In this document: positions 12,614 through 34,365 of the stretch, piece by piece
Layout of the letters: each line of letters opens with the position of its first letter
Position numbering within the stretch: the first letter of the stretch is position 1
Assembly (NCBI GenBank): GCA_012103535.1
Contig: WLWQ01000001.1
Coordinates: 558,001 to 622,000 of the forward strand
DNA: 64,000 nucleotides
Reading direction: 5' to 3'
Origin: Pseudomonadales bacterium
GTDB taxonomy: Bacteria > Pseudomonadota > Gammaproteobacteria > Pseudomonadales > Pseudohongiellaceae
Program-made: the position numbers and the translations under genes
Notes under the pieces: model-generated
Database searches by the model: none
What the model was told of the DNA's origin: nothing
What the model saw: only the letters and a program-made list of their open reading frames with translations

Positions 12614-12837
12614 ATTTTAGGATTTTATGACGTCATTTAGTATATTCACATACCATTTTGACCCTATGAGTTGATCTGAAAATTGAGGCAGAAGAGCACA
12701 ATTAGGAAATATTTATATAGCATCTCTTTCCTTTTCTAAAACTATTTCACAACACTATATTTAGAATAATAATTACAGCAGGCTGAAAATTATTTCATTC
12801 TCAATCAGTGCATTCCTATTCCGTAAATGTATATTTC

Positions 12838-14055: not shown

Positions 14056-14299
14056 TATGTTAGTAATTACCAACAAATCCAGGAAACTTTAACACTTCGA
14101 ATCGAATTACAAGCTCGCGCCCCATCCAATTCATCAATATCTGACGAAGTAAAATCGGTAAGATACAATATTGAAACAACTCAACAAACTCCACTGATCA
14201 ATTGAACTAAAGCGTTCTTACAAATTGTGACAGAAACCGTTCCAGAATCTCGACTTGCTGAGGAATGACCGTCGAGATTTTTATTACAAAAAGTGCTAA

Positions 14300-15445
14300 T
14301 CATTGGGTATGGAATACATATTTTTTGTAGGCGACTAACATTCTACTTTCTTGGCTTTCCCAAGAATATTTATCGGCAATTAGATCCAAGCTATCTGCTA
14401 TCTCTAATTTGCTTTTGTTATCAAGCTTTTGCAATGCTAGTAATAGAGATTCTGGAGTAAGCTCGGGAATGACAAAACCTATTCCGGTTCCTTCGACTAT
14501 TTCTGCCATCTCTTCAGAATCATTTACGATAACCGGTAGGCGCGCCATTACATATTCAAAAAATTTATTGGGTAGACAGTAGCGATCATTTAGTGAAGGA
14601 TTATCAATATATGCTATTCCAACATCTGCTGAAGATGTATAGTCCAAAACACTTTCGGGAGGTGCCGCTTTCTGGAAGAAGATATTCTTGTTCTTTGACG
14701 CGTACTGGTTGATTAGCACATCTAGTTGACCAAAACCCATGCACACAAGCACCCAATCAGTTTCTTCAATCTGTGAGAATACTTCAAGAAGCTGCTCAAT
14801 ACCTCTACCAGCAAATAAACCGCCTTGATAAATCAGTATTCGCTGATCTCCTTTAATATGTAACTCATCTCTGAGCAAATTTGATTTTTTTGGAGCACGA
14901 CTATAGGGACAATTTAGAATTGTAACGGTATTGTCTATGCCATACTTGGCGCGATACCAATTCTCAATTTTCCAGCCCACAAGAATCACTAAGTCCGCAT
15001 GCGATACAAATACTCGTTCTACTATTTTAGATAGGATCTTTTTTAGACCTTTCCTTCCATTAGTTTCGGTTTCAAGTTCGTGAGTATCGTAAACAAGCCT
15101 TGCTTTGCACACCAACTTAATTAGAGCCGCTTGAGGAAGTAATGCCACATTATGAACGTTTACGAGACGAACATTATTCTTCCAAGCAAATATCAATATC
15201 TTTGTTGAATATTCTAAAAGCTTGAGCAATTGGAAAGGTAAGATTTTAGGTAGAGATTTTGTTACAAGAGGTACACGCCAAATTGTTCTGTTAGCATCAA
15301 TTTCTTCGCACTCAGGCTCACCGCCTTGATTTAACGCAACAACAATAATCTTTTCTATTTCCGCAAACTCTGATAGAAATCTAGTTTCTTTCAGAATTCT
15401 ACTCGGGTGGTTATAGGGACTCGCCGTAATATGTATGTTTTTCAA
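14300..15445 (-). CDS. Family 4 glycosyltransferase
   Basis: The 381-residue protein starts MKNIHITASPYNHPSRILKE and has VNVHNVALLPQAALIKL plus LVYDTHELETE in the acceptor domain. The donor domain shows LIYQGGLFAGRGIEQLL, WVLVCMGFGQLD and LPNKFFEYVMARLPVIVND, the GT4 E-x7-E region being FFEYVMARLP. It lies 11 nt after the amidotransferase gene, so the two are cotranscribed. It probably transfers a sugar to the growing repeat unit; which one is unknown. The 244 nt downstream, to the next gene, shows no recognisable coding. Confidence 0.84.
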   Translation of the reverse strand: MKNIHITASPYNHPSRILKETRFLSEFAEIEKIIVVALNQGGEPECEEIDANRTIWRVPLVTKSLPKILPFQLLKLLEYSTKILIFAWKNNVRLVNVHNVALLPQAALIKLVCKARLVYDTHELETETNGRKGLKKILSKIVERVFVSHADLVILVGWKIENWYRAKYGIDNTVTILNCPYSRAPKKSNLLRDELHIKGDQRILIYQGGLFAGRGIEQLLEVFSQIEETDWVLVCMGFGQLDVLINQYASKNKNIFFQKAAPPESVLDYTSSADVGIAYIDNPSLNDRYCLPNKFFEYVMARLPVIVNDSEEMAEIVEGTGIGFVIPELTPESLLLALQKLDNKSKLEIADSLDLIADKYSWESQESRMLVAYKKYVFHTQ

Positions 15446-15456
15446 AGTGTTAAGAA

Positions 15457-17277
15457 TTATGCGTAAAGTTTAGGAATTCGATTTATGACGTGAATTGTAT
15501 CGACGAAATCAATCTCAACGGCTTGAAGATACCACTTGATACTTTCATAACGAGGTCTATTTTCGTCATGGACTAAATCCAATGCTTTGTCTCGAGAAAT
15601 TGCTCCTTCTCTAATCTGATTGCTTCTAAAAGTATCATGCTCAGTAAAACCAGCTACTGTGAAATAAATGTAATTGTAAAATGCAGCTGTAGCGTCACCT
15701 ATTCGCCAAGTCGTCTGCGTGTCCTCCGATATCTCCCAGTTATACATTGCTAAAGTCTCATCTACTGTTGTTTCATTCCACTCCCAAAAATCGTACACAT
15801 GAAAATAGTCGGTTTTTTTATGTAAGCTTCGCCAATATTCCCCCGATAACGTGTCATAGATAGAACTATTAAAGTAACCAGGGTTACGAATCATTTGGTA
15901 GATTCTTTTAGAATGATACTTTAGTTGCGCTAATCCTCCGCTATTGTATACACGCATTTCTTCGAATGCAGGTGGAATTCCTAGAAATCCAGTTTTAAAA
16001 TGAGTAACCTCAAGTGGATTGATCCCCCACAAATTTAGGCTTATTCCTGTTTGTTTTTTAACTGTCTCAACATGTCTGAAAAAATGTTTATCCCCTGCTG
16101 TTAATAAACTGATCATGCCAAGATGTGGATTATTGAGCCAGGCAGTTAGGTTTTTCCGGATATTAGATCGCTTAAGCTCGATGTCAGCTGCGACAATTAT
16201 ATTTTCCACAGAAAGAGCAGCACACATCCTACTTATGTTTCGCCTACCCAAATCGGAGATCATTCCCCAATCATAGGTATACGCAATTGGATTCATTCCA
16301 AGCTCTTTTACAATTAAATGCAATCCATAACAACTATCCCTTCCGCCGGAAAAAGGAACAATACAATCTGCTTCGCCTTTTCTTCGATATGGTAGAACTA
16401 AGTCTTCAAGAATCTTAACGGGCTTAGGCTGATTTCTAATAGTATTGTTATGGCAATAATTACAAATCCCTTCTTGATCAAATCTAATGAATGGCATCGT
16501 TTCCGGCAGAATGCAACGAGTACATCTTAATAAGTCAGGCTTACGATATTTTAGTAAGTTTTCTTCCCCACTTATTGGTATCACCTCAGGCAGAAAATTT
16601 GGCCTACTTTTACTGTTTGCAAAATGAAGTTCAATTTCCTTTCTACTAATGGGAATAGCTATTTCTGTTGCGTGAATTACCTGTGTCACTATATCGCAGT
16701 TAATTTCATGCAGAGGAAAAGACTCGGATGAGAAAAATTTGTCATTCCCTTTAGTTCCAATGTACAAACTTCCGTTGTTAGAAAATAGCCATAGAACGCC
16801 TTCTGTTACCATAAATACAGCTGCGGAAATCACTCCTTCACAAACTGAAAATAAAGTGCTTGCAACGGAATCTAACTTAGCACCTTTTTCTTTTTCTTCT
16901 TTTACTATTACTGGAATAATTTCCGTGTCTACAGATAACTGCCGAGCTGTTTTTCGCTGTTTCCAGAGCTCGTCTGCATTACAGATAATTCCATTATGGA
17001 TTGTGACAACCTCATCTCTTACAACAGGTTGATTATCCTCAATACCATTAGTTGCCAACCGGCTATGTCCACCAACAAGCTTAGAATTTGCGATATTTGA
17101 TTTAGTTACGAGACTACTTAGGGGAGAGTCGCTCCTGAGCACTCTATAGTTTTCACCTTCAAAGAGAATAAGCCCAGATGAATCGCGGCCTCTTTGTTCC
17201 GCATAATGAGCAAGTAATTGCAATTCGGTGAATCTTTGTTCATCTCCAGACAGTATTGCACCAAAAATTCCGCACAT
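15457..17277 (-). CDS. Fused class II glutaminase and N-acetyl sugar amidotransferase (WbpG/PseA-like)
   Basis: The 606-residue protein is a fusion. Residues 1-220 form a class II glutamine amidotransferase (Ntn hydrolase) with catalytic Cys2 in MCGIFGA, and GGHSRLATNG and IHNGIICN as glutamine-site motifs. Residues 250-606 are an N-acetyl sugar amidotransferase of the WbpG/PseA type: a four-Cys zinc site (C252, C255, C272, C275) and a PP-loop ATPase motif SGGRDS (310-315). WbpG-type enzymes make a uronamide or acetamidino group, normally with a separate HisH/HisF-like glutaminase pair that is absent here. Inferred role: amidation of the uronic acid made by the WbpB/D/E enzymes. Confidence 0.85.
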   Translation of the reverse strand: MCGIFGAILSGDEQRFTELQLLAHYAEQRGRDSSGLILFEGENYRVLRSDSPLSSLVTKSNIANSKLVGGHSRLATNGIEDNQPVVRDEVVTIHNGIICNADELWKQRKTARQLSVDTEIIPVIVKEEKEKGAKLDSVASTLFSVCEGVISAAVFMVTEGVLWLFSNNGSLYIGTKGNDKFFSSESFPLHEINCDIVTQVIHATEIAIPISRKEIELHFANSKSRPNFLPEVIPISGEENLLKYRKPDLLRCTRCILPETMPFIRFDQEGICNYCHNNTIRNQPKPVKILEDLVLPYRRKGEADCIVPFSGGRDSCYGLHLIVKELGMNPIAYTYDWGMISDLGRRNISRMCAALSVENIIVAADIELKRSNIRKNLTAWLNNPHLGMISLLTAGDKHFFRHVETVKKQTGISLNLWGINPLEVTHFKTGFLGIPPAFEEMRVYNSGGLAQLKYHSKRIYQMIRNPGYFNSSIYDTLSGEYWRSLHKKTDYFHVYDFWEWNETTVDETLAMYNWEISEDTQTTWRIGDATAAFYNYIYFTVAGFTEHDTFRSNQIREGAISRDKALDLVHDENRPRYESIKWYLQAVEIDFVDTIHVINRIPKLYA

Positions 17278-17602
17278 ATCAATTCCTAACTAGATAACAA
17301 TTCAGTAAATTCACATTTTTTTCGTAAAACATCTCATTCGCACCAAAAGCATGAGCAGCGCAAATCACACAAATAGTATTTTTGTATGCTCTCTCTAATA
17401 GACAACTAATAGGTGAGACATTAGTAGACTAAATGCCACCTAAGACACACGACAGATCTAGATTCGTTACAGAGTTCCAAGGAATCTATTAGCATTAGTC
17501 CCTACAACCCAATAAATACGGAAGCGCTTCTATATCGCAAAGCACGAAATCTCTTCTGTTTTGAAATTTAAGGCGCTAATAGAGAATAAAGTATTCGCCA
17601 AA
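17278..17602. other. A+T-rich intergenic region with no recognised feature
   Basis: This 325-nt gap lies between the Wzy-like gene and the amidotransferase gene, both on the minus strand. I found no coding frame of good character, no clear hairpin plus T-run and no ops element. It may hold an internal promoter for the downstream genes. Confidence 0.3.
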
Positions 17603-18964
17603 TTAGTGTTCGCGAATTCGCTTTAAACGAACAATCCCTCGACTTGAAATGAACAGCAACGTCATCACAATAGTCAGAAGCAATAAAAGGTAGAAGTCTA
17701 TGATGAAAGTACTTAAGCCAGTTGTCGAGAGTTCTATAAAATGCAATATCACCCATACTAAAAATGCAACGAGAATAGGAGTCATTGGTAGTCGCATAAT
17801 GAAGAGATTAAACCAGTACAATAGAAATCCAACAAAAAATGGTGGGATTATTACTCCTAAAAAACCAAAGTTGGCATACATTTCACCCCAAAAAAATGTT
17901 GGCATTGAACCTACAACACCGCGCGCAGCGTCTTGAGGAGTGACAATACTCATTACCTCAACTGTCAATCGAAACGGTGTATATGGTAACAGTCCCCCAG
18001 GATTAGGAAATGTCGTGCCATAGAGAAAACTAATGCTCTCTGGAAAGATCTCCAAGTAGTGATATAGACCTTGCATCTGACCGGTAAACATTCTTGAAAA
18101 TGTTCGCTGCATTCCATCAATCACGTCTTGAGCCCCAGTGAACAACCAAAAACTGATGCCCATTACTAAGAATAGTACGGGAACTCCCATAACGACATAT
18201 TTGACACGTATGTAGCCACTCTTTCTTAGAAAGACGTAAATCAAAAATAGCCCAATTAACTGCCCCATAAATGGTCCTTTTTCAATCGCGGCTAACATCG
18301 AAAATGAAGTGACAACAAATATCATTGCAAAAAGCAACAAATTTCCGAATCTGGGCTTCAAAAGATACATCGCAAAAGATGAATAAAGCGTCACAACCAT
18401 TAAGTCTCGCATGAACAGCTTGTACCAATGATAATTTCCAGAAAATGCATTTCCCATCTCTGATCTAAGTTGTTCAGACGTGAATTCCGAATTTACAAAC
18501 TCAAGGACGGAAAGAAGGGCTATATTTCCTAAGCCTATAATTTCTACATATCTAAATAAAACTAAGGAACTAACAATAAATAGCAGAAGTACTATTAACC
18601 TTTGAAGATCAAGGAAGTTTTCTGAGGTATGACTATGCGGACTGAATTTGTGCCAATCGCAAATTGGACCAAAACATCTTTTTGCAGTGATAAATCCAAC
18701 AATTAGTAATGTAATCGTGATCGATGAATAAAAAAATACCATCCACATTACTGACTTATCTTGAACAAAAGACGCCCTATAATCATCAAGCCCAAAAAAG
18801 AGTATGGGAAATCCAATGTATTGAAACACATATATTCCTATTAATAGAAATGAAGGAATAGTTACTCTAAGAAGGCTTATATCCGCAACCCTTAGCAATA
18901 GATGCCAGAATATGGGTAATAACACCCAGATCGCTGCAAATAGCACATCTTCTATCATTATCAA
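17603..18964 (-). CDS. Wzy-like O-antigen/capsule polymerase (polytopic membrane protein)
   Basis: The 453-residue protein is strongly hydrophobic, with about ten to twelve membrane segments, for example VLFAAIWVLLPIFWHLLL at the start and FYLLLLLTIVMTLLFIS at the end. A large loop near the middle to C-terminal third includes FLYGTTFPNPGGLLPYTPFR and MPTFFWGEMYANFGFLG, which resemble the periplasmic loop of oligosaccharide-repeat polymerases. It sits with a Wzx-like flippase and a Wzz-like protein in one locus, which supports Wzy. Sequence conservation in this class is low, so the call is based on topology and context. Confidence 0.7.
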   Translation of the reverse strand: MIMIEDVLFAAIWVLLPIFWHLLLRVADISLLRVTIPSFLLIGIYVFQYIGFPILFFGLDDYRASFVQDKSVMWMVFFYSSITITLLIVGFITAKRCFGPICDWHKFSPHSHTSENFLDLQRLIVLLLFIVSSLVLFRYVEIIGLGNIALLSVLEFVNSEFTSEQLRSEMGNAFSGNYHWYKLFMRDLMVVTLYSSFAMYLLKPRFGNLLLFAMIFVVTSFSMLAAIEKGPFMGQLIGLFLIYVFLRKSGYIRVKYVVMGVPVLFLVMGISFWLFTGAQDVIDGMQRTFSRMFTGQMQGLYHYLEIFPESISFLYGTTFPNPGGLLPYTPFRLTVEVMSIVTPQDAARGVVGSMPTFFWGEMYANFGFLGVIIPPFFVGFLLYWFNLFIMRLPMTPILVAFLVWVILHFIELSTTGLSTFIIDFYLLLLLTIVMTLLFISSRGIVRLKRIREH

Positions 18965-18991
18965 AAACTATATACTCTATTAAAAATTCTG

Positions 18992-20347
18992 TCAGTTAAG
19001 CATGGCTTCAAATATATTTCGCTGAATACACGTTTCAAGAGAGGAGTTGTGCCACAGCAAAGTAAATTTTCCGCCGACCTTCCGACAATTCAATGCCAAT
19101 TGCCTGCAATACTCAACAGCCTCTTGCCCTAATTCTAAATTCATATAATTGTGATCAAATATACTACTGTCCATAACAACCAATGGTCTCTGTTTTAAGG
19201 ACATGATTTCCCCATTAACAGCGTCAAACATGGTGTATTCGTGGCAAGTTCCGCAACGAAAGCCTGCATGATCCGCATAGCCAAGAGATGCGTCGTAGTT
19301 GAGTCCTGCGTCGTTCAAAATGCACATAGTCAAAGGCTGTTTCCAGCGTAAATAGTGCATGCGCCCGCCCCACTCTTCCTGCTCTATTTCTTCTGACATG
19401 CAAATTCTCTTAAGGAGTTTAAACTCTTGGTTTACAGTATCCTGTTTTTGATAAGCATTGTAGCTCGGGTGCAATCCAATTTTGTGACCGCGGCTGTGGA
19501 TATTCTTCAACAACTTTCGAATTTCTAGATTCTCTAGATCATAGTCTGCGTCTAATACATTCTCAGTTCGACCGCAAATAAAGTTAAAAGTACTGCTAAT
19601 ACTAAATCGTTCCAATTGGTCCATAATCCAATCAAAAGTGTTAAATGGATCTAATCTCAATTCTCCTGATCGAACTGCATTCCAAGTTATATAGCGCTTG
19701 AAACCGACTGAAATATTCCTTCTTTTGACGAAATCTCCAAAAACTTGCCTAACAATGTTTGCTCGAGAAACGTACAGATAGCGAAAAGGCCTATCGACAT
19801 CATGTGAGAGCTCAATCTCAAATCGATGATTCTTTATCTTAATTTCTGGCCATTGTTGCAATATTACTTGCCTCAAAATATCTAGCCACTCATCGACAAC
19901 GGGTCGCTCTAAATAATTGTGGAGATACGCGTTTGATAAGTTTGCTGCGAATCGGCCATGTCGGTCCAAGTCTGTTCGTTCAATTTCTTCTATTCGAGCA
20001 AACATCCAATACGTCAATCCAAGAATGTCATAATGGATAACATGTTCGTTGTTACGTTTTTCAATAAGCGGGAGCTCTAAACTATTTACACCAGGCGATG
20101 GTAATGGAGACCCTAGAATCGGCACCCAACCTTCAGCTTTTGCATCCCATAGCGTGCAGGGAGAATCGGATCGATTTTCAGAGAATCCCAGTACTAAAGA
20201 ATCAAAAACTATACACCCTTTTTCTCCATCAAGACTAAGGACCATTCCTTGATCTGAGAATTCTAGATTCCACAAATTGCCAAAACGCTCAGCACAAATA
20301 AGCTCAAGCCATTTCAAAAGCTCTAAGTTTTTTCTTTCGAATTGCAC
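18992..20347 (-). CDS. Polysaccharide deacetylase family protein with an extra N-terminal domain
   Basis: The 451-residue protein starts at GTG. The C-terminal half is a NodB-like fold: ELSHDVDRPFRYLY with the metal Asp/His positions, STFNFICG, GHKIGLHPSYNAY with the second metal-site histidine, and late FTLLWHNSS. The first 150 residues are a separate domain that I do not recognise (it may be the DUF7033 type that accompanies this subfamily). No signal peptide is visible, so it probably acts on a cytoplasmic glycan precursor. It could also be a non-deacetylase hydrolase of the same fold. It lies upstream of the Wzy-like gene by 27 nt. Confidence 0.75.
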   Translation of the reverse strand: MQFERKNLELLKWLELICAERFGNLWNLEFSDQGMVLSLDGEKGCIVFDSLVLGFSENRSDSPCTLWDAKAEGWVPILGSPLPSPGVNSLELPLIEKRNNEHVIHYDILGLTYWMFARIEEIERTDLDRHGRFAANLSNAYLHNYLERPVVDEWLDILRQVILQQWPEIKIKNHRFEIELSHDVDRPFRYLYVSRANIVRQVFGDFVKRRNISVGFKRYITWNAVRSGELRLDPFNTFDWIMDQLERFSISSTFNFICGRTENVLDADYDLENLEIRKLLKNIHSRGHKIGLHPSYNAYQKQDTVNQEFKLLKRICMSEEIEQEEWGGRMHYLRWKQPLTMCILNDAGLNYDASLGYADHAGFRCGTCHEYTMFDAVNGEIMSLKQRPLVVMDSSIFDHNYMNLELGQEAVEYCRQLALNCRKVGGKFTLLWHNSSLETCIQRNIFEAMLN

Positions 20348-20586
20348 TGAAATTCCCTAACTAGTACTGGAGCGCCATTGCTAATTGTTATCTGAAGCAT
20401 GTAGACTGTAAATGAATACATTCCTGGTTATCAGATAGAAGAATTGGAATGACAATTGGTTTGGAAAATAGAGTGCATCGACTAAATCGTACAATCGTCA
20501 ATACGTTTTCCGATTTCTAGTTGCTGTTTAAATGATATTTTTAGTAGATTCTAAAAAATTGAATGAGCTTAAACTTCAAAATATTT

Positions 20587-21306
20587 CTAACATGATTCCC
20601 TGAGTCGAAATCTCACTGCAGCAATAAATAAAGCAAGGATATTACGAATCAAAATCCTAAAATTCCTAGTTTTGATAGCCTTAATAATCTGTGATTGCTG
20701 AATATTGTATTTACGAGTTTTTCGTAATCTAATATTGCTAACTTTTAATGATACTAAAGCTCTTCTTAGATCCTTTTCAGTGTTCTCACATTCCACATCT
20801 ACAATTACGTTTCCAAACTCTGACAATAAATGCGCATCGCTTCCGGAATAAGTAGTAAGTTTATATTTGTTAGCTAGCTGACTCGCTTGCTCATCATAAT
20901 AGTCTGAACAACGTTGATTATAAGTCTCAATCAAATCCATATTACCTGCTATTTCCTCAATCCTTTCAGTTCGATGCCCTTGGTAAGGATGAGGGAATAG
21001 TAGAAGTCCTTCCTGTTCATTGACGTTATTTACAAATCCGTCGAGATCTCGCTCTTCAATTTCATTTGAAATGAACGCAGCAATTACGTCACCATATTCG
21101 GTACAATATTCAGCTGCTATAGGAGCGATAAGAGGTAGTCCTAGCTCCTTGATTCGCCTGCGAAGAGCCAAGCTGCCGTCTATAGTGTCATGATCGGTTA
21201 GAATAAGAAATCCAATTTCATTCTTAAGAGCAAAACTGATTATAGAATCTATTTTCACGTTAGAATCATACGAATAACAGGAGTGGAAATGAATAATGCC
21301 TCTCAT
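20587..21306 (-). CDS. PHP-domain metal-dependent hydrolase
   Basis: The 239-residue protein shows the PHP motifs in order: HFHS (His6, His8), TDHDT (Asp38-His39-Asp40), FPHPYQGHR near residues 104-112, and SGSDAH near 178. These ligate up to three metal ions in phosphoesterases. Its ATG overlaps the TGA of the ATP-grasp gene (ATGA), so it is translated with it. A basic, hydrophobic C-terminal tail (NFRILIRNILALFIAAVRF) could attach it to the membrane. Likely a phosphatase or phosphodiesterase acting on a nucleotide sugar or sugar phosphate; the substrate is unknown. Confidence 0.82.
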   Translation of the reverse strand: MRGIIHFHSCYSYDSNVKIDSIISFALKNEIGFLILTDHDTIDGSLALRRRIKELGLPLIAPIAAEYCTEYGDVIAAFISNEIEERDLDGFVNNVNEQEGLLLFPHPYQGHRTERIEEIAGNMDLIETYNQRCSDYYDEQASQLANKYKLTTYSGSDAHLLSEFGNVIVDVECENTEKDLRRALVSLKVSNIRLRKTRKYNIQQSQIIKAIKTRNFRILIRNILALFIAAVRFRLRESC

Positions 21307-22475
21307 CGCAATGACCTAAATGCATTTCGAATAGATACCGCCAGAGTAACAATGAGTTTCATAACAGCGGGCTTTGGATCCGTGACAAGCCAAAGATTGC
21401 TCTTGACTCTAGGGTCGACTATACAGCCTAGAACATCACAAAATCTTCGAAGGCTGACTGTTGCATGCCGTAGATCTCCATCGAGTGGCCAGTAATATTT
21501 TTTCCCAATAATGTATTTGCCAGCGGGTTTGACATATTCTCCTGCACCGAGCCGAATGAGATTAGCAGGAAAGTTTAAACCAGCAGCGTGACCTAGATCA
21601 TATGATCCCCAAAACTTCGCATTAATTTCCATCAAGACTAAGTCGCCATTTGGCTTTTCTTTGAATTCCACCATAGCAACTCCGTTCCAATCGAGCCTCT
21701 TTAGAATTTTGTGAGCGAGTATTGACAAGTTCTCATTACTAATAGTAATAGCAGCAGTACTGGATCCCCCACTGGGTGGGGCTTCTCTTAACCGCTTATG
21801 CTGGTATGAAGATATTTTTTCCCCTTTGTAATAAAGAGCAAATTCACCAACGCCATCTCCTTCAATATATTCTTGGATCATTGGCAATCCTGTAGTCTCA
21901 TCATACTCATGCAATTCACATAACTTTCTGTACTTTTTAAGTAAATCTTGCTTATTAAATGCATAATCAACGATATTTGCCCCCACTTCATACAACCATT
22001 TAATAACGCACGGATACGGAATTTCCCCCGCTAAAACTTCTATTTCTTCAATATCTTGAGGGTAATAAGTTTCTGGTATTGGTATTTCACAATCTATAGC
22101 CTTGTCGTAAGTAAGCTGTTTTGAACATGCAATTTTTAACTGTTTCCTTGTTGGAATTACGAGTTCTACTTTCGAAAACGAATCTCTATGATCTGAAAAA
22201 AACTGTGTTGAAATTATTCCGACAGGGATAATACTATCTATACTGTTTTTTTGAATATATCCTAGAATACACTTAACGGATAACCGATCTAAATATAAAA
22301 AACCACTCGTGAATTTACTGAATTTACATGTATCCCATTTGCTGGAAACAACGACATGCACCTTATTGCCTTCTTGGGCCAGTGACCGAACTATGCCTAG
22401 TGTGTTCTTTTGCGCTCCCTCCGTTACGAGAACAGATTTCTTTGCAGTATTTGGAGCATCAATATTCGGGCGCAT
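21303..22475 (-). CDS. ATP-grasp family ligase
   Basis: The 390-residue protein has the ATP-grasp layout: a Rossmann-like N-terminus (KSVLVTEGAQKNTLGIVRSL), a central CVIKWLYEVGAN segment that supplies the ATP-binding Lys, MIQEYIEGDGVGEFALY, and the metal-binding end NGVAMVEFKEKPNGDLVLMEINAKFWGSYD (read in two parts: EFKEKP and MEINAKFWGS). Enzymes of this kind join a carboxylate to an amine by an acyl phosphate. It overlaps the methyltransferase gene by one base upstream and the PHP gene by four bases downstream. Inferred role: adding an amino acid or similar group to a sugar acid of this glycan. Confidence 0.82.
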   Translation of the reverse strand: MRPNIDAPNTAKKSVLVTEGAQKNTLGIVRSLAQEGNKVHVVVSSKWDTCKFSKFTSGFLYLDRLSVKCILGYIQKNSIDSIIPVGIISTQFFSDHRDSFSKVELVIPTRKQLKIACSKQLTYDKAIDCEIPIPETYYPQDIEEIEVLAGEIPYPCVIKWLYEVGANIVDYAFNKQDLLKKYRKLCELHEYDETTGLPMIQEYIEGDGVGEFALYYKGEKISSYQHKRLREAPPSGGSSTAAITISNENLSILAHKILKRLDWNGVAMVEFKEKPNGDLVLMEINAKFWGSYDLGHAAGLNFPANLIRLGAGEYVKPAGKYIIGKKYYWPLDGDLRHATVSLRRFCDVLGCIVDPRVKSNLWLVTDPKPAVMKLIVTLAVSIRNAFRSLR

Positions 22476-23302
22476 TAACTTCGTATTAATACAAGAAAAT
22501 AGATTGCGCTGATGCGCGGGAATTTTTTACCTAGCCAAGTATCTAGTCTGTCAGCAATTGGAAACAATCCAAAATTGCACAAAAATTTCTGTAATCCTTC
22601 GTTATAGATAAGAACGCCTATACCTCTTCTTTCAATTATGCTAAATCGAGCACTAGTAACAATATTCTCAATATCTGTACATGAAAATTTCCAATGCCTC
22701 GCAAGTTCCTCGAAATCGTAATTTCCTGACGCCGGGGGTTTTCCTTTCAATTTTCGTACAATTTTGACTGCATAATATATCAAGCGGGAATATTGCCAAT
22801 AAAGGCTATTTATATTCGGCATTGAGAAGATCAAGCAACCCCCACGCACACATACGCGGCTAATTTCTTGTATGGCTTTGCGGTAATCGGGAACATGCTC
22901 CAATACCTCACTACAAACTATGAACTGTACAGACTCGTTAGCCAGTGGAATCATTTGCAAATCAACTTGTTGCGCATCGACAATTTGCGATAAGTTACCT
23001 GTCTCAGCCTTGATATTTTTTTTCAAGGACGAAAGCTCATCCGCCGAATATTCAAACGAGTACACCTTTCTAAATTTTTTTGCCAATAACAAAGAATTAG
23101 GACCTTTGCCTGATCCAGCATCTAAGGCAATATTGCAACTACCATCATACTTATCTATGTTTTCACTTATATATTTTATACGAGCACGGTGTTGGTATCG
23201 CCATAAACTTTCTAATCTTCTATAGTCATGAAACCGATCCATGAATGAGTTCCCATAAACATCACCAACAGGATCATCTTGACTTACACCTTTATTTTTC
23301 AA
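22475..23302 (-). CDS. Class I SAM-dependent methyltransferase
   Basis: The 275-residue protein has the SAM-binding motif I as ALDAGSGKGPNSLLLA, an acidic motif II region (VYSFEYSADEL), and CSEVLEHVPDYRKAIQEISR with GGCLIFSMPN for motifs IV-V (methyltransferase 11 type). It begins the tightly packed block methyltransferase/ATP-grasp/PHP (one-base and four-base overlaps). It may methylate a sugar hydroxyl or a carboxyl of the glycan; small-molecule specificity cannot be inferred. The start ATG at 23302 lies 102 nt downstream of the flippase gene. Confidence 0.84.
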   Translation of the reverse strand: MKNKGVSQDDPVGDVYGNSFMDRFHDYRRLESLWRYQHRARIKYISENIDKYDGSCNIALDAGSGKGPNSLLLAKKFRKVYSFEYSADELSSLKKNIKAETGNLSQIVDAQQVDLQMIPLANESVQFIVCSEVLEHVPDYRKAIQEISRVCVRGGCLIFSMPNINSLYWQYSRLIYYAVKIVRKLKGKPPASGNYDFEELARHWKFSCTDIENIVTSARFSIIERRGIGVLIYNEGLQKFLCNFGLFPIADRLDTWLGKKFPRISAIYFLVLIRS

Positions 23303-23404
23303 ATATCTGACTCAAATAATTGCTTTTAATATTGCAACAGAAAGATAAGGAGACCGAGCAACTCAATAATGATCTACAATGTAATCCATTCCTATTTATT
23401 CAAC

Positions 23405-24682
23405 TCAGTTCGTCATGTACTTTCTATGTTTTGAAGAACGTAGTATCAAAAATAAAAATACTCCATAGAGGATTACTTCATGAATCACATATAGCATAAG
23501 AAAAAAGTTGAAATCTAAATCGTATATAAAATAGAACAAAGAAGCCAAGGATACGAAATATAGAAGTTGCCAAAATGCGCCTCTCTTAACATTGTTCTCT
23601 AGGCTAAATACGGCACTTAGTGGACTTATAGCGAAACGAACCACGGCAACTATTGAAAGTAAGCCTGCAATTTCACCAGCTTCTACCCATTCATCACCAA
23701 ATACGATTGAAAAAATCATTGGTCCCCAAAAAATCATTAAGGCAACCAAAGGGGAACCGAACAATACCAGTAATAGAAATGTATTCAGCACATATTTTTG
23801 GAGGTCTTCAGGTTTTTCAATACTAATTGTTGTGATTTTTTTAAAAAACACCTGGAAAATAGCGCTTGAAAATAATGTTAATGGAGCACTGAGAATTCGA
23901 ATCGTTAAACTATAAATTCCAGTTACTGTTACACCAAATGCACTAGTAATAACGAAAACGGGCAATTGAGTAGCAATATTATTTATTAGAGAGGCTCCGC
24001 TAGAAAAGAGTGGGAAGTCTTTATACCTTTTAGCGTTCTTTAAGATACCATGAATCGATGAATTTCGAATAGAATTCAAAAACTCTGTTCTAGACAGCAT
24101 ATAGAGTGAAAATGCGCCCACACCCTGACCAGACACACTTCCAACCACCAACCCATTTGGCTGCGACACTCCAATTCCCAGAATTATCTGCATTGTTGCC
24201 GATGAGCCACTAATTGCCACACTGCTAGAGGCAATATTCTTATAGACCTCTTTCCTAGTATTCCAATAATTTAGTGTTTGATAAAATCCTGTCAATAATA
24301 GGCTTATTGGCAGCAGGTAAAGTAATTCCTGGATCTCTGAATTCCCAAGAGCCTTTACCAAAGAATATCCAAAAGTCTGAATAAGCAAATATGAAAGAAT
24401 GCTTAATACAACTGATATTGAAAGGCATAATACTACTACATTCGCTGCATCAGTTTCTTTTTTTGGCGACACTATTGCAAGTTCGTATCGCCCAGTTGAA
24501 ATTACTGCGAGTATCGCAACAATTGCCGAGTAGGTAGCAAAGGTTCCAAAATCTTCTGGCGAATAAATTCGGGTGAGTATTGGGCTTACCGAAATCAAAA
24601 TCGCTTGAGCAATACCTGTACCAGTTAGCAGAGTAAGGACACTCAAACTAGTCTGTGTTCGACTACTTTTATCGAAATTCAT
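23405..24682 (-). CDS. Wzx-like oligosaccharide flippase
   Basis: The 425-residue protein has about twelve hydrophobic segments beginning SVLTLLTGTGIAQAILISV, then PILTRIYSPEDFGTFATYSA, which is the conserved N-terminal motif of MATE/MOP-superfamily polysaccharide transporters. LINNIATQLPVFVITSAFG is typical of the seventh segment. It should move the lipid-linked repeat unit from the inner to the outer face of the cytoplasmic membrane for polymerisation by the Wzy-like protein. It is flanked by wbpE-like and methyltransferase genes. The family is clear; the glycan it carries is not. Confidence 0.87.
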   Translation of the reverse strand: MNFDKSSRTQTSLSVLTLLTGTGIAQAILISVSPILTRIYSPEDFGTFATYSAIVAILAVISTGRYELAIVSPKKETDAANVVVLCLSISVVLSILSYLLIQTFGYSLVKALGNSEIQELLYLLPISLLLTGFYQTLNYWNTRKEVYKNIASSSVAISGSSATMQIILGIGVSQPNGLVVGSVSGQGVGAFSLYMLSRTEFLNSIRNSSIHGILKNAKRYKDFPLFSSGASLINNIATQLPVFVITSAFGVTVTGIYSLTIRILSAPLTLFSSAIFQVFFKKITTISIEKPEDLQKYVLNTFLLLVLFGSPLVALMIFWGPMIFSIVFGDEWVEAGEIAGLLSIVAVVRFAISPLSAVFSLENNVKRGAFWQLLYFVSLASLFYFIYDLDFNFFLMLYVIHEVILYGVFLFLILRSSKHRKYMTN

Positions 24683-24796
24683 TAAGAAAGAAATAGTAAT
24701 TTAGTAGAGCTATACGAACAAAACACAGCAAATAAGAAGCACTTGAATATGCAAAACACTTTGTGTAATCGTCAAAAGCGAATCAAACTTCCAGTA

Positions 24797-25918
24797 CTAG
24801 TTATATTGCGTATCATTAATGGCCTCAGCTAATGATGATGTTACATTGACTATATCTTTTTGAGACAAGAAAGCATTCATAGGCAGACTTAAAACTACTT
24901 TACTTACGGATTCCGAAACCTCAAAACTGCCTTGCCTTTCGCACACTGATTGATAGCATTCTTGTTTATGAATTGGTAACGGATAATGAACTGCTGTTGG
25001 TATACCTTTACTCAACAATCTATCTCGAACAATGTTTCGATTTTCCACTTTAATAGTATATTGCGCAAATACACTTGTTCGATCTTGCAGAATGCACGGA
25101 GGTATGTCTTGACTTATGAGTTCTGACAATAATTCGGAATAACTGTTCGCCACTGATTCTCGTAGTTCTATTTCATTCTCATAGTGAGGCAGCTTTGCAA
25201 GAAGCACAGCAGCTTGGATTGTATCTAATCTACCAGCTATTCCAGTTAACTTATGTTGATATCGTTTGCTTTGCCCATGAACACGCATCATTCTAATTCT
25301 TTCAGCATACTCGCTGTTATTAGTAAGCACTGCACCACCATCTCCATAACAACCTAATGGTTTAGACGGAAAGAAGCTTGTTGTATATACATCGCAGTAT
25401 TGCACTTCACTTTTGCCTTTGTATGTTGCGCCAAAGCTTTGAGCGCCATCAACAATTACCTTTAAATCATGGGAGACGGCTACTTTTCGGATTTCATCCA
25501 AATCCGAGGGCTGACCATACAAACTAACAGGAATAATTGCTCTAGTGTTTTCAGTAATTGCCTCTTCCACTTTGGAAGAGTCTATGTTGTATGTGACCGG
25601 ATCAATATCTACGAAGATTGGAGTGGCTTGCAATAGCGTTATAGTTTCAGCTGTCGCAATAAAACTAAAAGGAGATGTAATAACTTCATCCCCAGGTTTA
25701 ATACCAATTGCCATCAATGCAAGAGTCAGTGCGTCAGTGCCACTAGAACACGAAATTGCATGATTTGAATTAGTAAACTCTGATAGCTCAGATTCTAATT
25801 CTGAGATCTCACTACCCATGATGTAGTTCGATTTATTCAATACTTGATGAATACGTTCATCGATATCAGTTTTATAAAGCTGATATTGGTGCTGGAGGTT
25901 TGCGAAATCTACTTTCAA
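24797..25918 (-). CDS. wbpE: WbpE-like UDP-3-keto sugar aminotransferase
   Basis: The 373-residue PLP enzyme of the DegT family has [20 protein letters not shown] at the start, [35 protein letters not shown], and the PLP lysine in [15 protein letters not shown] (Lys186). The FFPSKPLG version of the lysine motif is that of WbpE/WlbC. Known reaction: amination of the 3-keto group of UDP-2-acetamido-2-deoxy-ribo-hexuluronate with glutamate. The start overlaps the wbpD-like stop by four bases (ATGA), and wbpB lies just upstream, completing three consecutive pathway steps. Confidence 0.9.
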
Positions 25919-26511
25919 GTTTTAGATTGTTGATTGTCAATCGCTGTTAAACGATTTCCATCTAACCGATATTTCTGTTGGGTATTGGGGCATATTACTT
26001 CGTGCTGCCCATTTAACGGAAGGTCTAGTTTTTCTCCAAATTCACTTATCCAGCCAATCTGTTTTGCCGGGACTCCTACAACTAATGCATATGGTTTTAC
26101 ATCTTTGTTAGCTAATGCCCCTGCCCCTACAAATGCATATTCGCCAATAGTTACTCCGCAAATAATTGTGCAATTGGCCCCAAGCGTTGCTCCACGCTTA
26201 ATCAGAGTGTTGCGATACTCATCCTTACGCTCGATCTGTGCTCGCGGGTTGTATACATTCGTGAATACCATGCTTGGTCCGCAAAATACATCCTCTTCTA
26301 GCGTAACATTGTCGTAAATCGAAACGTTATTCTGAACCTTGCAGTTATCGGCGATCTTAGCTTTGTTTCCGACGAATACGTTTTGACCAATAGTGCAATT
26401 CATTCCTATTGTTGCTCCGCCACAAACATGAGCAAAATGCCAAATGCGACTTCCTTCACCTATAATGGCATCCTCATCAATTATCGCTGTTTTGTGAACG
26501 GTGTATTTCAC
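25915..26511 (-). CDS. wbpD: WbpD-like UDP-3-amino-sugar N-acetyltransferase
   Basis: The 198-residue protein is a left-handed beta-helix acyltransferase ([21 protein letters not shown] and later triplet repeats to [11 protein letters not shown]). SRIWHFAHV and the [14 protein letters not shown] segment match WbpD/WlbB, which acetylates the 3-amino group to give UDP-GlcNAc3NAcA. It starts at GTG (26511), directly after the wbpB stop, and overlaps wbpE by four bases. Together with wbpB and wbpE it forms the core of the 2,3-diacetamido-2,3-dideoxy-uronic acid pathway. Confidence 0.9.
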
Positions 26512-28393
<1,882 letters not shown>

Positions 28394-28752: not shown

Positions 28753-31593
28753 CTAATTTTGGACACTATTTATTGCAAGGACGCTAGTAGCCAGATTAAA
28801 TAATATCTGCGATACACTCGCCCATGTGGTGAAATAGTCTGTTGGCTCAATATCAAACGGAACAACAATAGTATCTCCAGCTTCAAGGTCAGAAGCATTG
28901 CGGTCAAAGAACCATCTGGAGTCCCCAAAAGTAACAACCTGGCCATTCGCTTTAATAATATAAGTTCGACCAGCATCAGATCGTTGAGTCAATCCTCCGC
29001 TCAAGTTAATGTATTCCTCTACTCCAAGGGCAGGATCGAAAACGTGCGATGTAGGATAATTAACTTCTCCCAATATGGTAATTTCCTGGCGCGTTCTTGG
29101 TATGAATAGTTGGTCTCCATTCCTGGCGATAACATCTAAGTTATCATTTCCTGCCATCAAACCTGGTAGATCTATTACTAATCTTCCTAATGGATCTGCT
29201 TCTTCAACTTGCTCTATGAGATCTTCTCCAATACTCAATACATCTCCCTGATCTTCGCCATCCTCTTCAAGCGCCACAGCAGCGATATCGCTCTCTAGTT
29301 CTTCTTGATACTGCGCCAATAACTCTCTTTCTCGCTCTCTCAATTCTGCTCTTAAGAGAACACTTGCGTTAGCATCTGCAAACGAAGTGAGCCCACCAGC
29401 GCGTGAGATTACAGATGAAAGGGAATCGCCTTTTGCGATCGAATAAGTTCCTGGAGACACTACCTCCCCTGCTAGTTCGATTGCTTCAGGTTCTACCCAG
29501 TTAGGAAGCTGACGCAATACCAAATTATCAAACTCGCGAAGTTCTAAGTTTCTGCCATTAACTGTTGAGCTTATGAGGTTTACATCAATATGATCTATTT
29601 GCCTCCCGGAATCACCAGATACAAAATAGCGAGTCATCTCAGCCTCGGTTGTTAACGCGCTTTCACTAAGTCCTCCCGCAGATCGAATAAGCCCTTCAAC
29701 TGTCATTCCATCGTAAAGTGGATATTCTCCTGGAAACTTTACCTGTCCTGAGGCTTGTACAATTTTGGATCGCTCAGCTGAATCTGCCTGGGATTGCAAT
29801 TGGTTTATGACATTTTGCAATAGCCCAGTGCGCGGTTCGTTTGCATCAAAAACGAGCAGGGTATCCCCTCTTTCGATAGCTATATTTGTTTCGATACTTA
29901 TTGTTCCCGTAGTAGCATCATGAACTTCGATGTTTCCTTGGTTATCTTGAATCCTTACTACTAATGCAAAATCCGAATCTGCATTTTCCAGCATTCCACC
30001 CGCAGAATTAACAATATCTCCAACAGTCATGCTTTCGGTGAACGGGTAAAGGCCGGGAAATCGTACATTGCCTTGCACTTCAATTAAAGCTGCCAGGTTA
30101 TCGAAACTGGCTTGCTCATTTAGTTCGATTATTAGGTCTTCTAGATTCTCTTCACGCGATTCAGTTGCCCCAAAAGTTATGATTCGATCGCGAGGCTCTA
30201 ACAGTAAGTCAGCATCGGAATTTGGATTAGTTAGCGCCTCTCCTAAACTCAGTTTCATGACTTGGAAAATTCTTGTGGGCTGCTGTTCGCGAACTATCAA
30301 AGCGTAATTAAGATCTGGATTCGGAAGTAACGCTGAAATAGATCCAATGACATCGGACACTCTCAAATCTTCACGCCACTGAAATCCACCAGGTCTTTGC
30401 AAGTGCCCCTCGGTAATTACGACATTTTCCAATTGATCAAGAACTGGATTAATTTGAATAAGATCACCATTGCGAACCTGTTCCGCTTGGCCTAACGGTC
30501 CTGCTAAATCCACATCCACAACTGTTCTCAATCCTTGCCCATCAATACGTTCAATTCTTGAAGCTTGAGGATAAGCTGTTGGCAACAGACCACCTGCAAG
30601 CATTAAAACTTCTAAAGTGGTTGATTCGTCTTTAATCTCATAGATCGCAGGCCGTATAACTTCCCCAGAAACTGCTACGGTTGGGCCAATTGGCGGAATA
30701 AAAAGAACATCATCTGGCAACAATCTTTGGTCGGCACTTGTATCGCCTTCCAGTAGAAGATCATATAGGTCTAACTCCGCAACAGTTTCACCTTGCCTTC
30801 TCAATTGTATGTTTCGAAGAGAGCCAACATTTGTAATTCCACCACTTACAAACAGTGCGTTAGTCATAGTAGAGAGGCCGCTGACAGTATAAGAACCAGG
30901 GCGAAAAGCCTCACCTAAAACGAAGATTCGAATGGATCGGAGGTTTCCAAGTGTAATTGCCGCTTGTTGCCCAATAAGTTGTGTACTAACTATTTCATCA
31001 ATTTGAGCTCTTAAGTCATCAAAACTTAATCCTGAGACAGCAATTGGCCCAATCTCAGGTAAGAGTAGGACTCCTTCTCTCGTGATTACCAACTCGTGAG
31101 TCACATTTTGCTGGCCATACAACTGAATGATGACATTATCACCAGGGCCCATGACGTAATTTGCAGGAACAGGAATGTCAGTAGCTGGCGCAAATGTAGT
31201 TGGAGAACCCGCAAATAAACTGTATCCAAATTGTTCAAGCTGAGAACTATTTGTAGGAGTGGTACCTTCTTCTGCTAAATCAGCATCATCAGCTTGTTGC
31301 TCAATTTGAAAGTTTCTTTCAATCGCATTTGAATTAATTGTTTGCGGCGCTCGCGCTCGCGGCTCAACGTCTAGTGGCTCTGCAATTTGCTCTTGAGTAA
31401 GCGCAGGTGAGCTCAAACTATCTAACAGCGCCTGTCTTTGTGCAGGTGTTAGAGCTTGCAGCTGCGCCATCTGTTCGGGAGTCAGATTGATGTTCTGCGC
31501 ACCAACCTGATTTACTCCTACAGCAAGCGAAAGCAAAAACAAAATTTTAGAAGCTAATGAAAGGCAGAGATTTAGATTTGGAGTTCTCTTCAT
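28753..31593 (-). CDS. Outer-membrane polysaccharide export protein with many SLBB domains (Wza superfamily)
   Basis: The 946-residue protein starts with a hydrophobic signal sequence (ILFLLSLAVGVNQVGAQ), then a helical LTPEQMAQLQALTPAQRQAL segment and a Pro/Thr-rich linker. The polysaccharide export domain begins near residue 145 (NYVMGPGDNVIIQLYGQQN). Repeated SLBB-like blocks follow, each with the pattern V.GEV..PG.Y...... TL...I..AGGL (for example AVSGEVIRPAIYEI, IQASGQVKF region and ELAGEVVSPGTYSI), about six in all. It is far longer than E. coli Wza (379 aa) and has no lipobox. It probably forms or lines the export channel. Confidence 0.87.
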   Translation of the reverse strand: MKRTPNLNLCLSLASKILFLLSLAVGVNQVGAQNINLTPEQMAQLQALTPAQRQALLDSLSSPALTQEQIAEPLDVEPRARAPQTINSNAIERNFQIEQQADDADLAEEGTTPTNSSQLEQFGYSLFAGSPTTFAPATDIPVPANYVMGPGDNVIIQLYGQQNVTHELVITREGVLLLPEIGPIAVSGLSFDDLRAQIDEIVSTQLIGQQAAITLGNLRSIRIFVLGEAFRPGSYTVSGLSTMTNALFVSGGITNVGSLRNIQLRRQGETVAELDLYDLLLEGDTSADQRLLPDDVLFIPPIGPTVAVSGEVIRPAIYEIKDESTTLEVLMLAGGLLPTAYPQASRIERIDGQGLRTVVDVDLAGPLGQAEQVRNGDLIQINPVLDQLENVVITEGHLQRPGGFQWREDLRVSDVIGSISALLPNPDLNYALIVREQQPTRIFQVMKLSLGEALTNPNSDADLLLEPRDRIITFGATESREENLEDLIIELNEQASFDNLAALIEVQGNVRFPGLYPFTESMTVGDIVNSAGGMLENADSDFALVVRIQDNQGNIEVHDATTGTISIETNIAIERGDTLLVFDANEPRTGLLQNVINQLQSQADSAERSKIVQASGQVKFPGEYPLYDGMTVEGLIRSAGGLSESALTTEAEMTRYFVSGDSGRQIDHIDVNLISSTVNGRNLELREFDNLVLRQLPNWVEPEAIELAGEVVSPGTYSIAKGDSLSSVISRAGGLTSFADANASVLLRAELRERERELLAQYQEELESDIAAVALEEDGEDQGDVLSIGEDLIEQVEEADPLGRLVIDLPGLMAGNDNLDVIARNGDQLFIPRTRQEITILGEVNYPTSHVFDPALGVEEYINLSGGLTQRSDAGRTYIIKANGQVVTFGDSRWFFDRNASDLEAGDTIVVPFDIEPTDYFTTWASVSQILFNLATSVLAINSVQN

Positions 31594-31762: not shown

Positions 31763-32077
31763 CTATTTTGCTTCGTTTTGCAGTTGCTCTATTTCAGTTT
31801 TGATTTGCTCATATTCCTGCATTTTTCGCTTTAAAAAGCGAACAGTAACTTTGGTTTTTTGCTCTACACCAGATGGAGTTAAAAGGTAGAGATAACCAGC
31901 TTTATTAGGATTTTCCTTAAAATTTCTTGCCTTCACCCATCCCTTATCAACCAATGCTCGCAGACAATAATTTAGCTTGCCCAAACTGATTCCAAGGGAT
32001 TTCGAAAGTTCACGCTGGGATTGATTTGGGTTCTCTTCTATGGATTTTAGAATTTTATAGGTTATTTCATCTTGCAT
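31763..32077 (-). CDS. MarR-type EPS-associated transcriptional regulator
   Basis: From ATG 32077 the protein has 104 residues; GGAG eight bases upstream supports this start over a GTG at 32107. It begins MQDEITYKILKSIEENPNQS and has a winged helix with RELSKSLGISLGKLNYCLRA as the helix-turn-helix, then a C-terminal coiled-coil (RFLKRKMQEYEQIKTEIEQL). This is the TIGR04176-like family found beside exopolysaccharide genes. It lies between the RfaH-like gene (111 nt upstream) and the SLBB export gene, so it probably regulates this locus. The ligand is unknown. Confidence 0.83.
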   Translation of the reverse strand: MQDEITYKILKSIEENPNQSQRELSKSLGISLGKLNYCLRALVDKGWVKARNFKENPNKAGYLYLLTPSGVEQKTKVTVRFLKRKMQEYEQIKTEIEQLQNEAK

Positions 32078-32188
32078 AGGATGATCTCCAGTTACTTCTG
32101 GATTCACTAGTTTGAAAAATTATTAAAATCAATGAGATAGGAGTGTTTTAGAATCTAAATCAGCATTCATTTATCGACTTGGGAAATA

Positions 32189-32734
32189 CTAAACGTATTG
32201 AGGGATTTCGAGATCTTCTTTATTCAGTAACGCGCGAGTTTGCTTGCCAATGATGTCTAATAGCACCGAAACCCGGTGTACACCCTTAGATTCTTGGAAT
32301 ATGCAGCGGTAACCGGAGAATGGGCCCTGTTCAATCTCCAATACATCTCCTTTGTTCCAAGATACTTCCTTAACTATTTGAAATTTATCGCTATTTTCAT
32401 TCCTTACTAGCTCCACAATTAGCGATTCCGGTATTGACTGAGGAACTCCGCCGAATCGAACGATTCCACAGACCCCTATAGTCGACCTTATAGGGCTCCA
32501 ATCATCGAATTTTTGGTCGAGCTCGATAAATAGATACCTGGGAAAGAATGGCTCTATTCGGGATCTAATATCAGAACCCTTACGAAATTGGACCTCAATC
32601 TTTGGCAGATAGGTTGTATAGCCTTGGCGTTCAAGCTGGTGCTTGGCAACGTCTTCCTGGCGTGGTTTTGAGTAAACCAAGTACCAATGCTTATCAGCGT
32701 TCGAATTGTTCGGTGCCGGATTGAATGAGTTCAT
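32189..32734 (-). CDS. RfaH-like transcription antiterminator (NusG paralogue)
   Basis: The 181-residue protein has the NusG N-terminal domain (HWYLVYSKPRQEDVAKHQLE, RIEPFFPRYLFIELD, GVCGIVRFGGVPQSIPESLI) and a C-terminal KOW domain (NKGDVLEIEQGPFSGYRCIF). EP.FPRYLF and the IVRFG..P..IP region are closer to RfaH than to NusG. RfaH-type proteins bind RNA polymerase paused at ops and let it read through long operons. A perfect 13-nt ops element lies in this gene's own leader (32802-32814). Inferred role: antitermination of the polysaccharide operon and control of its own expression. Confidence 0.88.
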   Translation of the reverse strand: MNSFNPAPNNSNADKHWYLVYSKPRQEDVAKHQLERQGYTTYLPKIEVQFRKGSDIRSRIEPFFPRYLFIELDQKFDDWSPIRSTIGVCGIVRFGGVPQSIPESLIVELVRNENSDKFQIVKEVSWNKGDVLEIEQGPFSGYRCIFQESKGVHRVSVLLDIIGKQTRALLNKEDLEIPQYV

Positions 32735-32801
32735 TTCTTTTTATTTTCAGATAGTTACGACTTTTAGTTTAAGCCCCGTCTTTCAAGCCATCGAATCTAA
32801 G

Positions 32802-32814
32802 GCACGCTACCGCC
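32802..32814 (-). promoter_or_regulatory. ops element (RfaH recruitment site) in the leader of the rfaH-like gene
   Basis: The minus strand reads GGCGGTAGCGTGC from 32814 to 32802. The first 12 bases equal the ops core of E. coli JUMPstart sequences. It lies 68 nt before the ATG of the RfaH-like gene, in the transcribed leader and in the sense direction. No upstream JUMPstart half is recognisable. I found no second copy in the other gaps of the locus by reading. Confidence 0.85.
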
Positions 32815-33024
32815 AGCAATCTCGCAATTTTGCAGAATGTGCTGTTTTTTTGTCTTTTTATGGCAACTTCAACTGAGGATTATCCTCAATCTGCAGTTGC
32901 AGTTTACGCCGTTTATTTTCGTGTTCAAGTCTTGAACGCTCTTCAATTTGAACTCTTTTGTGTCATAAATATTTCTGTTTGTATTGATAAACTCGCACTT
33001 ACAATCACTGGAAATTAATAGCAA

Positions 33025-34364
<1,340 letters not shown>

Positions 34365-34365
<1 letters not shown>

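Follow-up and report, generated by a model that had tools for sequence, protein, structure and literature searches.

An ops element in front of an operon-resident rfaH gene, and a candidate MarR_EPS operator upstream of it, at the head of a polysaccharide gene cluster

The window analysed here is a stretch of 64,000 nucleotides from the 4.53 Mb genome of a Pseudomonadales bacterium of the family Pseudohongiellaceae, and its minus strand contains a polysaccharide gene cluster. This cluster begins with a gene (32189..32734) for an RfaH-type antiterminator of 181 residues, which passes the TIGR01955 family model (150.1 bits, cut-off 144.5), misses the narrower RfaH model NF006534 (117 against 124), and has E. 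coli RfaH chains as its best PDB matches. The second gene (31763..32107) encodes a MarR_EPS regulator (TIGR04176, 157.3 bits against a cut-off of 88), with an internal ATG at 32077 as its likely start, as the best Shine-Dalgarno sequence is found there. Then follow, on the same strand, genes for an SLBB/Wza-type polysaccharide export protein of 946 residues (28753..31593) and a Wzz-type chain-length protein (27467..28393), and a further run of genes (11453..27462) including an oxidoreductase, an acetyltransferase, two DegT-type aminotransferases, a flippase, a methyltransferase and two glycosyltransferases, together with genes that have no Pfam match; the extent of the operon is putative. A first-pass annotation of this DNA had placed a MarR-type EPS regulator and then polysaccharide genes behind rfaH, and the TIGR04176 score and the downstream same-strand genes bear this out.

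The leader of rfaH carries, on the minus strand, the sequence GGCGGTAGCGTG (32814-32803), a 12-nt exact match to the ops element, with the rfaH ATG (at 32734) 68 nt further on; the match can be extended to 13 bases (GGCGGTAGCGTGC, 32814..32802). According to the available part of PMC5995543, the 12-mer is the E. coli ops12 oligonucleotide, and the 13-mer forms part of the E. coli ops oligonucleotide NT44. Both the identity to the E. coli core and the distance to the ATG had been reported in the first-pass annotation and are confirmed by the coordinates and the 12-mer match. The genome scan for other ops copies that had been suggested there returned the full 12-mer only at the rfaH leader, so that a second copy, as a mark of further RfaH targets, was not found in the whole 4.53 Mb; the reversed control did not occur at all. 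The 10-base core GGCGGTAGCNT is present in nine copies, no more than the 17 copies of the pattern read backwards, and the short core alone is therefore uninformative. Seven of the other eight core copies were inspected, and all lie within open frames of at least 98 codons, one of them doubling as a terminator-like hairpin. Such numbers might suggest that the ops match is a GC-rich motif that arose by chance, but the full 12-mer is single in the genome, and its position and orientation are conserved among relatives.

In nine genomes of the genus, GGCGGTAGCGTG was found 13 times, and eight of these copies are ops elements before rfaH (two of them in genome G005). The remaining five comprise one copy after the divergent rfaH gene of G024 (L214) and four copies inside long open frames (L216, L221, L223 and L225). 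All eight genus loci that have rfaH followed by marR_EPS carry ops at the same place and on the same strand; these loci are related and do not represent independent observations, but their RfaH proteins are diverged, those of six of them being about 47–55% identical to that of the window. When the eight leaders are aligned on ops, the conserved columns read TTGGCGGTAGCGTG.CT.A, with conservation almost nowhere else: 19 of the 120 columns are identical in at least seven leaders, nearly all around ops, and all 12 ops bases are kept in all eight loci, with most flanking columns unconserved. On the other strand, GGCGGTAGCNT was not encountered in any of 103 loci inspected up to 2.5 kb on each side of rfaH, and the backwards pattern occurred four times, counting both strands. 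By these sequence comparisons the ops element is confirmed as genuine beyond chance; a chance match is rejected on conservation and strand control, and we regard it as extremely improbable. In E. coli the central bases G4, G5, A7 and G8 are described as needed for RfaH recruitment and not for pausing (PMC5995543, in the part available), and their conservation here therefore points to a reader of the RfaH type.

The position of ops relative to rfaH varies among relatives. A family set of 28 RfaH loci, comprising 27 of the 28 matches over the cut-off plus L018, has GGCGGTAGCNT before rfaH in seven loci, after it in 18 and absent from three, with no opposite-strand copy anywhere in the flanks covered; these counts exclude three weak RfaH matches of 54–61 bits in other genera (G111:C32, G122:C25 and G123:C24). 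The 28th match over the cut-off (L171) again has ops before rfaH. Every ops-before-rfaH locus of the family belongs to the window's genus, and of the 19 RfaH loci of the other genera, 17 have ops after rfaH and none has it before. A contig set was made of the best 80 of at least 517 relatives minus L059, L060, L061, L122 and L137, which duplicate loci of the family set; in these 75 best-scoring loci ops lies before rfaH in three, after it in 34 and is absent within 2.5 kb in 38, where "absent" may stand for missing sequence at the several loci that reach a contig end near rfaH. Among the relatives of these two sets that do carry ops, it is found after rfaH in 18 of 25 (family set) and 34 of 37 (contig set). 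An order-wide RfaH search matched 117 of 390 genomes at 1e-30, and in the best-scoring 30 loci inspected ops was found before rfaH in none and after it in four (L156, L164, L165 and L167). The looser pattern GGCGGTAGNNT has single matches on the other strand in L046 and, 4.8 kb upstream, in L059, and another in L168 of the order-wide sample. An ops element near rfaH is thus common, but not general.

The commonest gene orders are palindrome-ops-rfaH-marR (in the window's genus), rfaH-palindrome-ops-marR and palindrome-marR-rfaH-ops, the palindrome being the element described below. Outside the genus, ops lies upstream of both marR and rfaH in L078 (Thiohalophilus) and L083 (Imhoffiella), and in L183 and L204 of a class-level sample, of which L183 resembles the locus type of L078; in L117 it lies 854 nt upstream, with another ORF intervening. 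The closed loop, with ops before rfaH, is a trait of the window's genus with a few distant parallels. Within the genus, ops precedes rfaH in all eight loci with marR_EPS behind rfaH and in none of the four RfaH-family loci without marR_EPS that were examined (L016, L017, L172 and L173, the call for L173 being based on some 560 nt of upstream contig), so that this placement of ops accompanies the polysaccharide module. One of these four, L017, retains the palindrome and the promoter-like element, lacks ops before rfaH, and has neither marR_EPS nor a same-strand polysaccharide operon within 6 kb behind rfaH, as if ops had been lost together with the operon. In a tree quickly built from 102 RfaH proteins (the partial gene of L069 was left out), the seven genus rows with ops before rfaH and L017 form one supported group of eight rows (SH-aLRT 98). 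The before or after state changes, in one direction or the other, at least four times on this tree. Locus L018 (G077) was counted as ops-before-rfaH despite an apparent frameshift near the start of its rfaH gene; its match to the family model starts no earlier than position 41 of that model, as would be seen with an assembly error or a decaying gene.

Upstream of ops lies the palindrome GTTCAAGACTTGAAC (32923..32937, minus strand), which overlaps the predicted -35 hexamer and ends 88 nt before the ATG of a divergent UDP-glucose 6-dehydrogenase gene (33025..34365, plus strand). A search with marR_EPS in a class-wide sample of 274 genomes gave matches at 1e-20 in 36 genomes; 30 of the 37 matches were taken, and the resulting class-level set comprises 29 loci (L179-L208 minus L187), the window's own locus being left out. 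Every inverted pair of 5-mers with a spacer of 0–10 was counted in up to 600 nt before marR. The pair GTTCA-N5-TGAAC ranks first of all, occurring upstream of marR_EPS in 27 of the 29 loci, and the other four inverted pairs present in at least four loci are the same pair, shifted or extended. Both exceptions (L200 and L208) carry the one-mismatch form ATTCA-N5-TGAAC. In ten of the 29 loci ops lies between palindrome and marR. Loci collected through RfaH give the same picture: 48 of 56 have the palindrome before marR, no more than 1.3 kb away (the eight others are L058, at a contig end, L081, L082, L083, L104, L111, L117 and L127), and only ten occurrences lie in the remaining 754 kb of these loci. 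It is found upstream of marR_EPS in every common gene order, and in the window genome the 15-base palindrome, with one mismatch allowed, has one other occurrence, inside an open frame (L139). Alignment of the eight genus leaders on the palindrome shows 20 of 90 columns conserved in at least seven, among them GTTCAA..CTTGAACA and, at equal spacing in seven of the eight, GTA.ACT. In genome G005, locus L171 has a second palindrome near position 6596, with TGCACT 16 nt on; this palindrome precedes the ops-rfaH unit by about 2.3 kb and lies near small ORFs resembling a toxin-antitoxin pair.

The palindrome is most simply regarded as a candidate operator of MarR_EPS, which would then probably control the transcript of the rfaH cluster. 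As it overlaps the predicted -35 hexamer in the window's genus, MarR_EPS would be expected to repress its own operon. This provides a concrete operator hypothesis for TIGR04176, for which a full-text literature search by accession found nothing and a search by product name single mentions.

The right half of the palindrome coincides with a putative -35 hexamer, TTGAAC (32923..32928, minus strand), proposed on sequence resemblance; a putative -10 hexamer, TAAACT (32901..32906), follows after 16 nt, and transcription would be expected to start near 32894. The pattern TTGAAC-N16-TAMACT recurs in seven of the eight ops-before-rfaH loci and in L017, with N18 in the eighth, so that a promoter-like element is present in all eight, ending 73–152 nt upstream of ops; ops, and rfaH beyond it, should therefore be transcribed. 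The predicted start goes against a start downstream of 32802, which the first-pass annotation had named as incompatible with its proposal that RfaH acts on its own transcript. The pattern itself is not rare (three copies in the window genome, seven for the reversed pattern), so that only its placement is telling. A sigma-70 scan of the region with a threshold of 9 did not report this promoter, the two hexamers of which match at 8 of 12 positions. A perfect inverted repeat TGAGGATAATCCTCA at 32888-32874, close to where the leader is predicted to begin, can fold into a 9-bp hairpin; it is absent among the inverted repeats of the seven genus relatives scanned.

The leader segment 32803..32844 (minus strand), comprising a CAGCACA box, a short hairpin and ops, is JUMPstart-like, as judged from its fold and from a match to RF01707 over model positions 1-38 of 38 (21 bits, E 0.7). 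Identity with a full JUMPstart RNA was rejected, since the score is below the Rfam gathering score of 35, and 20 relatives gave no JUMPstart match up to E 2. Outside the window's group the hairpin directly 5' of ops is stronger than in shuffled sequences (55 sites, mean reached by none of 100 shuffles), and within the group the mean over seven sites was reached by two of 100 shuffles. The hairpins outside the genus vary in sequence and are JUMPstart-like, e.g. TGCTGG(ATGC)CCAGTA or TGCGAAATAC(GTCG)GTATTTTGCA, and are exemplified by L041, L045, L079, L096, L099, L115, L124, L127 and L135; in the window's genus T or TT precedes ops in place of the hairpin.

Further repeats and ops-like sites were observed elsewhere. 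Six one-mismatch ops-like matches were found in the window, against about two expected by chance; one of them is TGCGGTAGCTT at 4797-4787 (minus strand), and the ORF 4114-4713 begins 74 nt further on. Loci L043 (about 1978-2053 and 964-1043) and L044 (1982-2054) have long, near-perfect inverted repeats beside marR-rfaH; their microRNA matches are below cut-offs, and the repeats resemble miniature mobile or REP-type elements.

Shine-Dalgarno pairing is absent at six of the eight rfaH starts that have ops upstream, compared with a median of -3.7 kcal/mol for 94 other rfaH genes (p 0.0075, a value that treats related loci as independent). A missing Shine-Dalgarno sequence is among the traits described for RfaH-controlled genes in the accessible part of PMC7819879. 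As proof of RfaH-dependent translation the observation is weak, because the loci are related and 17 of the 52 window ORFs, rfaH included, are equally weak at the first start codon.

According to PMC5995543, as far as available, RfaH contacts ops directly through the side chains K10, H20, R23 and R73, and the E. coli variants R73A, H20A and R16A are described in the available text of PMC2871177 as having strong ops-pausing defects. In the window protein K10 and R23 are kept, and H20, R73 and R16 are replaced by Q, I and V, respectively. R73 is kept in six of the seven proteins of the ops-rfaH group (the shifted-start L018 included), and the window protein alone departs from it; four of the seven have N at position 20, and four have V at position 16. 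Relatives in which ops follows rfaH also have N more often than any other residue at position 20 (29 of 51), so that reading of ops may tolerate N20. An AlphaFold2 model of the window RfaH (44 sequences in the alignment, mean pLDDT 84.8, pTM 0.63), made without an alpha-hairpin RfaH as control, has a beta-barrel C-terminal domain and no alpha-hairpin. The modelled fold resembles that of the monomorphic, constitutively active, operon-linked RfaH homologues of PMC13015549, which, in the portion of that preprint at hand, are described as active without ops and as missing some ops-binding residues. The genus RfaH could accordingly be constitutively active in cis without reading ops, leaving ops as a strong pause site or a relic, a reading in keeping with the beta-barrel model, with the loss of the H20, R16 and R73 equivalents in the window protein and with the ops-independent, operon-linked homologues of PMC13015549. 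We consider this unlikely, since all 12 ops bases are kept in all eight loci, including bases dispensable for pausing, R73 is kept in six of the seven group proteins, and the beta-barrel model has no positive control. The full conservation of ops, central bases included, speaks for ops still being read by RfaH.

From the anatomy, the conservation and the gene orders described above we infer a promoter, binding of MarR_EPS, loading of RfaH and the sign of both resulting loops. We propose, and think it likely, that the segment is a compact self-control module heading the polysaccharide cluster, with MarR_EPS acting at initiation and RfaH at ops. A sigma-70-type promoter (about 32928-32901) would start the transcript near 32894, and MarR_EPS, the product of the second gene, would bind the palindrome over the -35 hexamer and govern initiation, most likely as an autorepressor. 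The polymerase would pause at ops about 80 nt after the start, where RfaH, the product of the first gene, would load, travel with the polymerase and spare the long operon from termination. As ops precedes rfaH, RfaH would act on its own transcript, and since rfaH has no clear Shine-Dalgarno sequence, the effect on rfaH itself may be exerted by way of ribosome recruitment. The negative arm at initiation would thus enclose a positive arm, which would work at elongation and perhaps also at translation. The first-pass annotation had pictured a single loop in which RfaH acts on its own transcript; the genuine ops and the promoter-like element upstream of it support such action, but strong positive feedback is not supported, and the palindrome and promoter, missed there, suggest that MarR_EPS controls the same transcript.

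The size of the positive arm has to be weighed against the possibility that ops serves the distal polysaccharide genes only, the level of rfaH itself barely changing and no meaningful feedback arising. In the capsule operon of V. vulnificus, loss of rfaH lowered expression of distal and not of proximal genes (review PMC7247339, in the part available); as rfaH is the first gene here, its self-effect may likewise be small. Most of the relatives that carry ops have it downstream of rfaH, a placement in which it cannot affect that gene. The placement of ops before rfaH in all eight marR_EPS-linked loci of the genus and the absence of Shine-Dalgarno pairing at six of these eight rfaH starts nevertheless argue against an exclusively distal role, which we judge rather doubtful.

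The first-pass annotation also envisaged that positive feedback through ops could give on/off, bistable expression of the capsule, as the autogenous anatomy of the locus might suggest. RfaH acts singly on a polymerase, and we know of no cooperativity in its loading, so that simple feedback would lack the cooperativity needed for bistability. The likely MarR_EPS operator would add another, probably negative, control, and the effect on rfaH as the first gene is expected to be modest. Bistable expression is not favoured, and we hold it to be very unlikely; with a modest positive arm enclosed by a negative one, a stable response would be expected instead of a bistable switch. A more specific form of the self-control module can be put forward only tentatively: MarR_EPS would act at a family-wide operator GTTCA-N5-TGAAC, and a constitutively beta-folded RfaH would read ops in cis, the position of ops having changed in evolution so that the loop is closed in some lineages, including the window's genus, and open in their relatives.

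The ops element, RfaH and operon-resident NusG paralogues are already known; the palindrome before marR_EPS is new here. With the RfaH/ops/JUMPstart leaders of E. coli the locus shares the identical 12-nt ops before a polysaccharide cluster and an RfaH-family protein; unlike in E. coli, the cluster here opens with rfaH itself, which follows its own ops, and the 12-mer has no second copy in the genome. Two NusG paralogues, UpxY of Bacteroides and LoaP of Bacillus, likewise have their genes inside or next to the operons on which they act (PMC7593976 and PMC7819879, available parts), but the window protein is under both cut-offs (68.3 of 100 for UpxY, 38.5 of 125 for LoaP). AnfA1 of Serratia entomophila is a linked RfaH-like regulator, and the afp promoter contains an RfaH operator (PMC6748792, as far as available); the cargo of this system is different. 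On the Providencia plasmid pNR1418-2 an ops-like GGCGGTAGCGC lies before traA, with rfaH later in the same tra gene run; this site has one mismatch to the motif searched for, and on the plasmid rfaH is not first and no MarR_EPS gene is annotated. Plasmid rfaH genes were rejected as a closer precedent, as only one of the six stretches scanned (from five plasmids, among 342 plasmid records with an RfaH match) has an ops-like site, and that with the one mismatch. Among open-licence papers, none was found to report an ops element preceding rfaH, or positive feedback by RfaH.

RfaH cluster CL4 of Wang et al. 2020 (PMC7593976), with RfaH beside a helix-turn-helix protein and envelope genes, is perhaps the same group, and the recruitment modes of operon-encoded RfaH paralogues are described as unknown in the part of that paper available; here, exact ops sites were found in many operon-resident loci, before or after rfaH. 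The 2026 preprint PMC13015549, in its available portion, proposes that operon-linked, beta-folded RfaH proteins are recruited in cis without ops. The presence of exact ops elements before or after a resident rfaH gene in many Gamma- and Betaproteobacteria makes this proposal directly testable, and the two placements of ops provide a natural contrast between the closed and the open loop.
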